From Chloroflexota bacterium (GTDB lineage: Bacteria > Chloroflexota > Dehalococcoidia > JACPEP01), in contig JACPEP010000039.1 in assembly GCA_016183425.1 (NCBI GenBank), positions 1 through 64,000 on the forward strand: a stretch of DNA of 64,000 nt. The letters run 5' to 3'. A program made the position numbers and the translations under genes. Position 1 is the stretch's first letter; the number at the start of each line of letters is the position of its first letter. Below the pieces are notes generated by a model. The model ran no database searches. It was not told the DNA's origin and saw only the letters and a program-made list of their open reading frames with translations. Below, one piece after another: positions 27,261 to 30,172 of the stretch.

Positions 27261-27358
27261 TGGCGGGAGTGCATGGGAGTCGAACCCACCCGAGACGACG
27301 TCCGCCGCCTCGCAACGGTTTTGAAGACCGCGAAGCCCACCGGGGCCCATTCACTCCC
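27261..27358 (-). tRNA. selC: tRNA-Sec (anticodon TCA), CCA encoded
   Basis: The 98-base gene folds as a selenocysteine tRNA. The acceptor stem is GGGAGTG paired with CACTCCC, with an A-G mismatch at the eighth pair; the discriminator is G and CCA is encoded. A long D stem (GGGCCC with GGGCTT) and an anticodon loop CTTCAAA with TCA follow. The variable arm is long (CGAGGCG...CGTCTCG), and the T arm is GTGGG-TTCGACT-CCCAT. It implies UGA decoding by SelB; selA, selB and selD are not in the window. It lies between trxA and yihY on the same strand. Confidence 0.93.
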
Positions 27359-27997: not shown

Positions 27998-28657
27998 ATG
28001 AGTCTTACTGAAGCAGAGCACGTTTTTGCGGGGGTGCACGAGAACGGGATCAACGATTTTCTGAAGGCCTTCCTTACTGCCCGGCCTCGTTACATCAACT
28101 ACGGTTCTCCGTCTTTCGTCCCGGTCACGACGGCCCTGGCCACCAATGTACCGGCCATTGCATTTCCGGGAATACCAGGGGGAATACAGTACGCGGTCAG
28201 GTTTTCCATCCCTAGCTTGGACTGCCACCCCGATAGCAGCGGTGGGGCGTCTCCGTTGCCACCGGGCCCAGGACAGTTCAGCATTCGAACTAAGGTCACT
28301 ATAACCGTCGCCTGTGGAAGGTGGGAGCAACATCCGAATACTGACAAGCCACCGTCGGGGGCTTTTATACCTTTAAGCACGAGCCTTGACGTGTGGGTCC
28401 GAGGCAAGCCTACGGTGGCCTACTTTGGGCCGGGCGTGGGGGAAATTGGGTTCATGGTGGAAGATATTGAGATCGTGGATATTAAACCCGATTCCCTGGA
28501 ATCGGTGTTGGAATGCATCATCCGGATGATACTGCAAGCGGTATTGGCAAACGTGCGTCTTCCCTTCCATGCGCTGACTATAGGTGCCTTCTCCTTGATT
28601 CTGTTGCGCGGTCCGGAGATCGAAGACGACCAAATCAAGCTGTATGGTGACGTATAA
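27998..28657 (+). CDS. Unassigned protein 1 of a three-gene unit
   Basis: I do not recognise this 219-residue protein. It has no signal peptide. Residues 5-35 are an amphipathic stretch (EHVFAGVHENGINDFLKAFL), the middle is beta-rich with prolines, and the last ~60 residues combine a helix (LECIIRMILQAVLANVRLP) with a final strand pair ending in GPEIEDDQIKLYGDV. Its ending resembles that of the next protein (ASDEDELVLTADI), so the two may be distant paralogues. The pattern recalls TULIP-type lipid-binding folds, which is only a guess. ATG 27998 has AAGGAG 8 bases upstream. Confidence 0.6.
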   Translation: MSLTEAEHVFAGVHENGINDFLKAFLTARPRYINYGSPSFVPVTTALATNVPAIAFPGIPGGIQYAVRFSIPSLDCHPDSSGGASPLPPGPGQFSIRTKVTITVACGRWEQHPNTDKPPSGAFIPLSTSLDVWVRGKPTVAYFGPGVGEIGFMVEDIEIVDIKPDSLESVLECIIRMILQAVLANVRLPFHALTIGAFSLILLRGPEIEDDQIKLYGDV

Positions 28658-28666
28658 GGAGGAGTC

Positions 28667-29467
28667 ATGGCGGATATTATTGTTGCTGCAGATGAAGTAG
28701 CCGCGACCAAGCTGGTACATGACGCCGAGACGGCGCTGGGTACTGTATCAAAGAGCGGATCGGGCAGCCTAGGGCCGTTCACTGCGTCTTGGAATGCAAG
28801 CGCCTATTTGGCCAATGGCACCATAGACCTGATCTCTCCCAACGTGATCCGGGTTGCCGATTGCGAGCTACATTACACCCTGGGTTTTACTTTCTCCTTC
28901 GACTTGAGCAGTATCCTTCCTGACTTCTGTCTGCCACAGGTATGTATCTGGATACCATTTGTGGGGACGGTCTGCACGCCAGAGGTCTGCATCGACTGGC
29001 CGACGATCTCGATCCCGGTCAGCTACTCCGACATGGTGAAGTTCACCGCCGACTTCTCTCTAAACGTCTACTTGAGCGGAGGCAATTGGCTGGTTGATAT
29101 CGTCATTGTTGGCATCCCCTCTTTGACCATCAGCCTGGCGGCGGCAGCCATCCTGGTAGCTATCGGCACGGCGGCTTCTCTCGTCCTTTTGGCGGTTCCC
29201 TTCATCGGGCCTTTTCTGGCGGGAGCGGTGATAGCGATCACGGCTGCCATCGGTATCGCTGGGATCACCGGGCTTTTAGGTCCAATTTTGTCTCTCTTTG
29301 TCTCAGGCCTGACCTTCAACATCTACAAGCAGCCCAAGGTCTTCGAGGTTCTGCCCGCAGCGCTGCCTCTGGATCCCGCGGTCAAGGTTACTCTGGATAG
29401 TGTGACGGCTGCCGTTGTGGCCAGTGATGAAGACGAGTTGGTCTTGACGGCTGACATTTCTCCCTGA
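28667..29467 (+). CDS. Unassigned protein 2 with Cys-rich motif and hydrophobic hairpin
   Basis: The 266-residue protein is not recognised. It lacks a signal peptide. Residues ~86-108 hold four cysteines in a pseudo-repeat (FCLPQVCIW, then VCTPEVCIDW). Residues ~145-215 are a long Gly/Ala-rich hydrophobic region (two or three possible membrane segments, including VLLAVPFIGPFLAGAVIAITAA). The C-terminus returns to soluble beta structure (VKVTLDSVTAAVVASDEDEL). A protein that inserts into membranes after folding is conceivable. ATG follows AAGGAGGAGTC, 9 bases after the previous gene's stop. Confidence 0.6.
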   Translation: MADIIVAADEVAATKLVHDAETALGTVSKSGSGSLGPFTASWNASAYLANGTIDLISPNVIRVADCELHYTLGFTFSFDLSSILPDFCLPQVCIWIPFVGTVCTPEVCIDWPTISIPVSYSDMVKFTADFSLNVYLSGGNWLVDIVIVGIPSLTISLAAAAILVAIGTAASLVLLAVPFIGPFLAGAVIAITAAIGIAGITGLLGPILSLFVSGLTFNIYKQPKVFEVLPAALPLDPAVKVTLDSVTAAVVASDEDELVLTADISP

Positions 29468-29491
29468 TAGCCTGATAGGAGGATGATTGAT

Positions 29492-30172
29492 ATGGATGCT
29501 TTGGATAGCCGATCCCTTCGATACGTGGACTGTTTCGGGAAGAAGTTCTCTGCGTCGGGCCAAGTCCGCTACCGCATTACCACTGCTGCTGGAGCCTGGC
29601 TTCCGGTGGGTAAGGTGGGGGAGGAGGAGGTTTTCACCATTGACGTGAAGGAGCGGAAGGAGGCCAGGAAGGAAGGGCGCCAGTATGATGTCACGGTGCT
29701 GCGAGAAGGTAGGAGGCTCGTGGCCGATCCGCCCCACTTGGAGATTGAAGCCGGAAGTATCGTAATATGGCATACCCCTGACTCGGCCATCACAGGCTTC
29801 ACTGTACGTGGAGAGGGAGCGGGGGGCGCCTTTGACAGCTCAGCGCTGACCTCGGAAGCTGTCTATACACACGCTTTTGGTACTCCGGGTGATTATCAAT
29901 GGGTGGATGAAAACGGCGGACCACTTAAGGGGCTGGTGCAGGTCCGAGCCCTCGAACAGGGTAAGAGGGAGGAATTTGAGAAGTGGGTGCAGACCCTCAA
30001 TAACGGAACCCTCATCACCATAAATGGGGACAAAGCCACACCAGACCGGGTACAGATTCTGGTGGGGCAGACGGTTTTTTGGGCGGTGGAGAAGGCGCCC
30101 GGAATCAGTATCACGGACGCCAGGCTTGGCCGGGGCGCCCGGAGGGGGGGCAACCCCTCCCGTAAACCTTAG
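29492..30172 (+). CDS. Unassigned protein 3 with cupredoxin-like domain(s) lacking copper ligands
   Basis: About 226 residues, start chosen at ATG 29492 because AGGAGG (29477-29482) is 9 bases upstream; the ATG at 29483 touches it. Residues ~75-150 follow a cupredoxin pattern (EIEAGSIVIWHTPDS...AFDSSALTSEAVYTHAFGTPGDYQW...GLVQVRA), but the His/Cys/Met copper ligands are absent. A second, shorter match (VQILVGQTVFWAV) comes near residue 190. The very C-terminus is basic. Probably a binding or scaffold domain. Third gene of the unit. Confidence 0.6.
   Translation: MDALDSRSLRYVDCFGKKFSASGQVRYRITTAAGAWLPVGKVGEEEVFTIDVKERKEARKEGRQYDVTVLREGRRLVADPPHLEIEAGSIVIWHTPDSAITGFTVRGEGAGGAFDSSALTSEAVYTHAFGTPGDYQWVDENGGPLKGLVQVRALEQGKREEFEKWVQTLNNGTLITINGDKATPDRVQILVGQTVFWAVEKAPGISITDARLGRGARRGGNPSRKP

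Follow-up and report, generated by a model that had tools for sequence, protein, structure and literature searches.

Background

The TULIP proteins have the element order alpha-beta4-alpha, and two of them, YceB and BPI, have only 5% sequence identity (PMC5507252). Their six elements make up a super-roll around a hydrophobic cavity. One study removed hydrophobic signals from YceB, DUF4403 and DUF2140, and it reports a signal sequence for DUF2993 proteins (PMC6791001). OrfX/P47 clusters are patchily distributed across distant bacteria (PMC7020563), and OrfX1-OrfX3 partners pair (PMC13030710). Here we describe three adjacent genes, P1, P2 and P3, in a stretch of 64,000 nucleotides (the window) from a Chloroflexota bacterium. 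Literature searches found no description of the trio. An earlier note on the window had taken the genes to be one functional unit, with a guess at a membrane-inserting or lipid-handling system of the TULIP/P47 kind.

The locus in the window

The layout of three genes drawn in the earlier note was correct as to genes, strands and coordinates. The features are:

27998..28657, + strand: P1, a soluble protein of 219 aa from an unnamed family, with an N-terminal helix, a beta-rich middle and a C-terminal helix
28667..29467, + strand: P2, 266 aa, unnamed family; acidic, with a pI of 4.1, and strongly hydrophobic, with a GRAVY of +0.95
28928..28990, + strand: four-cysteine segment of P2, C88-x4-C93-x9-C103-x4-C108 (residues 88-108)
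29084..29317, + strand: Gly/Ala-rich hydrophobic stretch of P2, residues 140-217 (about 78 residues)
29492..30172, + strand: P3, a degenerate cupredoxin protein of 226 aa with a basic C-terminal tail
29726..29950, + strand: cupredoxin-like domain of P3, approximately residues 79-153, without the His, Cys, His, Met copper ligands

The trio is intact and close-packed in the window, where it is flanked by a thioredoxin gene on the opposite strand and by two glutamine synthetase genes. The strong Shine-Dalgarno sequences that had been reported were seen before each gene (AAGGAG for P1, AAGGAGGAG for P2 and AGGAGG for P3), as were the reported gaps of 9 and about 24 bases. P1 and P2 are separated by 9 nt, and the gap of 24 nt between P2 and P3 holds for a P3 start at ATG 29492. 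This is the better start because the ATG at 29483 directly abuts its own GGAGG. The C-terminal end of P1 is EIEDDQIKLYGDV. In the P1, P2 and P3 families the N-termini contain no stretch hydrophobic enough for a signal peptide; the lack of signal peptides noted earlier for the three proteins of the window is thus borne out, by N-terminal hydrophobicity, across all three. Boundary repeats, a promoter and a terminator of the trio were looked for with no clear result.

A selenocysteine tRNA gene lies about 640 bases from the trio, on the - strand at 27261-27358 (ARAGORN; Rfam RF01852, 76.6 bits). The genome of the window can therefore probably use selenocysteine, and ORFs that a TGA interrupts at other places in it deserve re-reading.

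Distribution of the trio

Sampling took in part of each phylum searched, and other phyla were covered by one scan for close relatives. The trio was found in 11 sampled genomes: nine belong to the phylum of the window, one is an Acidobacteria MAG (G100) and one came from a search of that MAG's phylum (G534). The scan of GTDB contigs gave a single close relative, in an Acidobacteria groundwater MAG (locus L002), with the trio in order and 60-71% identity. A two-row P2 profile, run against 400 genomes of the window's phylum, recovered three further genomes at E<1e-8, each with the ordered trio, and further genome sampling contributed six more carriers. When profiles of P1 and of P2 were searched independently against 400 genomes of this phylum the identical four genomes were returned, an agreement with a chance of about 1e-9.

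Every one of the 11 carriers has P1, P2 and P3 contiguous and in this order; at the nine loci measured, neighbouring genes are separated by -4 to 24 nt. In one genome (G787) P1 and P2 are fused as a single ORF through a glycine-/proline-rich linker, PPAGGGGGGG...PAAPPG, which is good genetic evidence that the two proteins work in contact. Among 130 genomes from the class to which G292 belongs, strong full-length matches to P3 (E<1e-80) were confined to trio carriers. The weaker matches to the P3 profile mostly covered approximately profile positions 82-160, and those that were read are mostly ordinary cupredoxins with copper ligands. The sole P1 match without P2 is the following relic:

L053:5017-5268, - strand: remnant of P1 in G858, 39 residues; a decayed copy that lacks P2 and P3 in its vicinity

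The genes of the trio therefore do travel together, and the claim that they form a functional unit is supported by their constant association, their fixed order and the fusion. Matches of all three proteins to unrelated known families, and relatives in which the genes are never neighbours, were also looked for, and neither was found.

History and decay of the block

Trees of P1, P2 and P3 agree, with two clades and full support at the split. Clade A consists of the window, the Acidobacteria MAG (L002) and G905, a genome from the class of G292, and spans phyla. Clade B holds the remaining carriers (8/11), G534 from the Acidobacteriota search among them. The genes flanking the trio differ at almost every locus, in line with the earlier remark that it fits no pathway around it, and with the exception of one genus no extra conserved neighbour genes were found across the loci. 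In this genus the trio of three species occupies a common site at a purine gene; other species are without the trio. The same two clades for each protein, the phylum-crossing membership of clade A and the differing flanks indicate that the trio has been passed on horizontally, in one piece, among bacteria that are only distant relatives.

Searches for P1 and P2 in IMG/VR, and for P1 in phage records, gave no matches, and PLSDB gave none that was convincing. The Sinorhizobium matches in the PLSDB search (E=0.02) involved one short segment, which overlaps leuA in one record, and were not credible. Viral or plasmid carriage of the trio thus had no support from IMG/VR, phage records or PLSDB.

Wherever dS could be computed, dN/dS for the trio genes was 0.1-0.4, as expected under purifying selection. 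Because the reading frames are kept in 11 genomes with such ratios, they are not due to chance. In P1 of G292 (L006/L044) a Trp codon that is conserved in its relatives is replaced by an in-frame TGA, which is probably a nonsense mutation and not a selenocysteine codon. P2 of G863 has a frameshift. Both the TGA and the frameshift could be assembly errors, though in G292 the whole genome is on one contig.

Some other genes lie close to the trio at individual loci. Directly downstream of it in G534, on the same strand, L037:1294-3636 encodes a protein of 780 aa with two GFNPQPEPPA repeats, for which there was no evident signal peptide, no match in Pfam or PDB, and no relative in plasmids or IMG/VR. 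The Acidobacteria trio has a 145-aa ORF downstream on the same strand (L002:7803-8240), with no Pfam match. In two genomes the gene immediately before the trio encodes a regulator, at L042:2168-2572 and L038:50-835 (AraC-type HTH; response regulator).

Sequence features of P1 and P2

Neither P1 nor P2 gave a credible match in Pfam, NCBIfam or PDB sequences, and PHROGs gave none beyond chance. The PADLOC-DB models of anti-phage defence had no match for the window and L007 copies of P1, P2 and P3. Judged by their sequences, P1 and P2 each represent a protein family that Pfam and NCBIfam do not contain, and the odds are roughly even that a solved fold would place them in a known superfamily.

All members of the P2 family are acidic and hydrophobic (pI 4.1-4.4, GRAVY +0.25 to +0.95), and most extreme in clade A (pI 4.1, GRAVY up to +0.95). 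The pattern CxxxxC-x9-CxxxxC that had been read in P2 was found at C88 to C108, and the segment contains four cysteines in 10/10 aligned relatives, although the third shifts in some. The Gly/Ala region, put at about 70 residues in the earlier note, is real and covers residues 140-217 when defined by a Kyte-Doolittle 19-residue mean >1.6, but it is special to the window's clade. In the same place clade B has an amphipathic helical region. The clade B versions of P1 conserve CxxxxC and CFC, whereas only two of the cysteines seen in clade B persist in P1 of the window clade.

P1 and P2 had been thought to share an ending. As a sign of kinship this did not survive comparison by hhalign, which gave 0.7% for the endings, ie within the range of shuffles, and 3% for the whole proteins. 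A short NPL-DP-P motif, in the N-terminal part of P1 and the C-terminal part of P2, was slightly above shuffles.

P3 as a cupredoxin without copper

The P3 profile matched plastocyanin 1b3i with E = 5.5e-4, and P3 matched an amicyanin model with a best E = 2e-4 and a plastocyanin model with 4.2e-4. In 11/11 P3 sequences the His-Cys-His-Met copper ligands are absent at the positions where true cupredoxins have them. The cupredoxin pattern without metal ligands described earlier is thereby confirmed, and from these matches P3 is taken to be a degenerate plastocyanin/amicyanin-type domain that lost its copper ligands. P3 is basic in most members of clade B.

The TULIP/P47 question

PF06597 (Clostridium_P47) did not match any aligned member at E<=1 in Pfam scans, and a search with it of 100 genomes of the G292 class, four trio carriers included, gave 0/100 at E<=0.001. 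With P1 and P2 profiles (A7, A8) against all PDB sequences no TULIP protein (BPI, CETP, YceB, P47) was found at E<=10, a test of low power because YceB and BPI share only 5% identity, so that P1 and P2 may still have a similar fold. AlphaFold models of the two proteins, made from two-row alignments, had a pLDDT of 41-42 and the order helix, beta meander, helix. All Foldseek matches obtained with these low-confidence models were noise, with a few TULIP entries at E 0.26 or worse. The predicted helix-beta-meander-helix layout, together with the hydrophobic character of P2, is compatible with the TULIP/P47-like guess, but models of this quality cannot decide it. As no sequence match was given by Pfam, the PDB profiles or the PF06597 genome search, the trio is not placed under TULIP/P47 here.

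Possible functions

The strict linkage and order, the fusion of P1 with P2, the shared history in two clades and the purifying selection lead us to favour, tentatively and as a reading that could well prove wrong, a self-contained mobile operon whose three products act as a complex that handles a lipid, a hydrophobic ligand or a membrane. That P1, P2 and P3 form one complex is likely from the genomic evidence. The lipid or membrane role we infer from the acidic, hydrophobic P2 and the helix-meander-helix order of the low-confidence models. In such a complex P1 and P2 would pair with each other, each as a TULIP-like, helix-wrapped beta cradle, and would bind a lipid or another hydrophobic ligand. 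The helical or hydrophobic region of P2 would dock on a membrane or enter it, and the P2 cysteines would either bind a metal or be joined in disulfides that fix a hairpin. P3, with its copper lost, would be a beta-sandwich adaptor which closes or targets the complex. In that case the trio would transport hydrophobic molecules, deposit them, or condition a membrane; it would be an accessory trait, gained and lost as a block. Because P1 to P3 are without signal peptides, a role as an extracellular lipid carrier would need an unknown export route. Against a lipid role stand the lack of a TULIP sequence match, the pLDDT of 41-42, the Foldseek noise and the neighbouring genes, none of which hints at lipid metabolism. 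Somewhat more doubtful is the bolder proposal of an unnamed, phylum-hopping machine of three obligate partners, two new families and a cupredoxin turned scaffold, that shuttles lipids or inserts into membranes without a known export signal.

The hydrophobic region of P2 could also belong to a pore-forming or permeabilising system which is directed against competitors or predators, the P2 hairpin inserting into the membrane with P1 and P3 as chaperones or assembly partners. The approximately 78 contiguous hydrophobic, Gly/Ala-rich residues in P2 of the window clade, with their beta-rich flanks, are what such a system might use, and the patchy spread across phyla, with decayed copies in G292, G863 and G858, would suit an accessory weapon. 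We nevertheless consider it unlikely: the region is merely amphipathic in clade B, ie in 8 of the 11 carriers, and there is no immunity-like gene, export signal or match to a toxin family. A structural assembly, in which the trio coats or organises an intracellular lipid or polymer granule, or builds a protein sheet, P2 being its hydrophobic anchor and P3 a basic layer on the outside, seems quite improbable. It would accord with the absence of signal peptides and with the pairing of an acidic, hydrophobic P2 with a P3 that is mostly basic in clade B, and a hydrophobic hairpin would presumably be suitable for a granule surface, but no granule-metabolism genes are neighbours, the repeats typical of self-assembly are absent, and nothing links the trio to proteins known from granules or shells. 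A metal or redox unit, with metal bound by the cysteines of P2 (and of P1 in clade B) and P3 kept for docking as a former copper carrier, is very unlikely, since the four cysteines of P2 in 10/10 aligned members, the CxxxxC and CFC of clade B P1 and the descent of P3 from a plastocyanin/amicyanin-type domain are countered by the missing copper ligands in every P3, the shifting third cysteine of P2, the two clade B cysteines left in window-clade P1 and the want of a common redox partner gene.

The trio is a testable obligate set in poorly cultured bacteria and defines two families outside Pfam and NCBIfam. If the favoured lipid or membrane role is true, it would also be a plain example of a cupredoxin put to another use without its copper, and a further bacterial multi-protein lipid system without signal peptides, beside OrfX/P47.

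Comparison with known systems

P1 and P2 may resemble the bacterial TULIP families YceB, DUF4403, DUF2140 and DUF2993 (PMC6791001) in size and in an alpha-beta meander-alpha topology. They differ in being unmatched by Pfam or by the PDB profile search, and the signals described for those proteins (PMC6791001) have no counterpart in P1 to P3. The likeness to plastocyanin/amicyanin-type cupredoxins lies in the middle domain of P3, which aligns with 1b3i and with both models, and in the genuine cupredoxins of the same genomes that the P3 profile matched. However, P3 has no copper ligands or signal peptide, and it has extra N- and C-terminal regions and obligate partners in P1 and P2.

Compared to OrfX1-3/P47 (PF06597 + OrfX1), P1 and P2 have no match to PF06597 or in PDB, no toxin neighbour was recognised at the trio, and the cited descriptions of OrfX/P47 are without a cupredoxin-type partner. 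Like the trio, however, those genes form small multi-protein clusters that are patchy in distant bacteria, and the models allow for a helix plus beta-meander layout in P1 and P2. As an analogy, the trio may best be set beside OrfX/P47, a group of TULIP proteins encoded together (PMC7020563, PMC13030710, PMC6791001).
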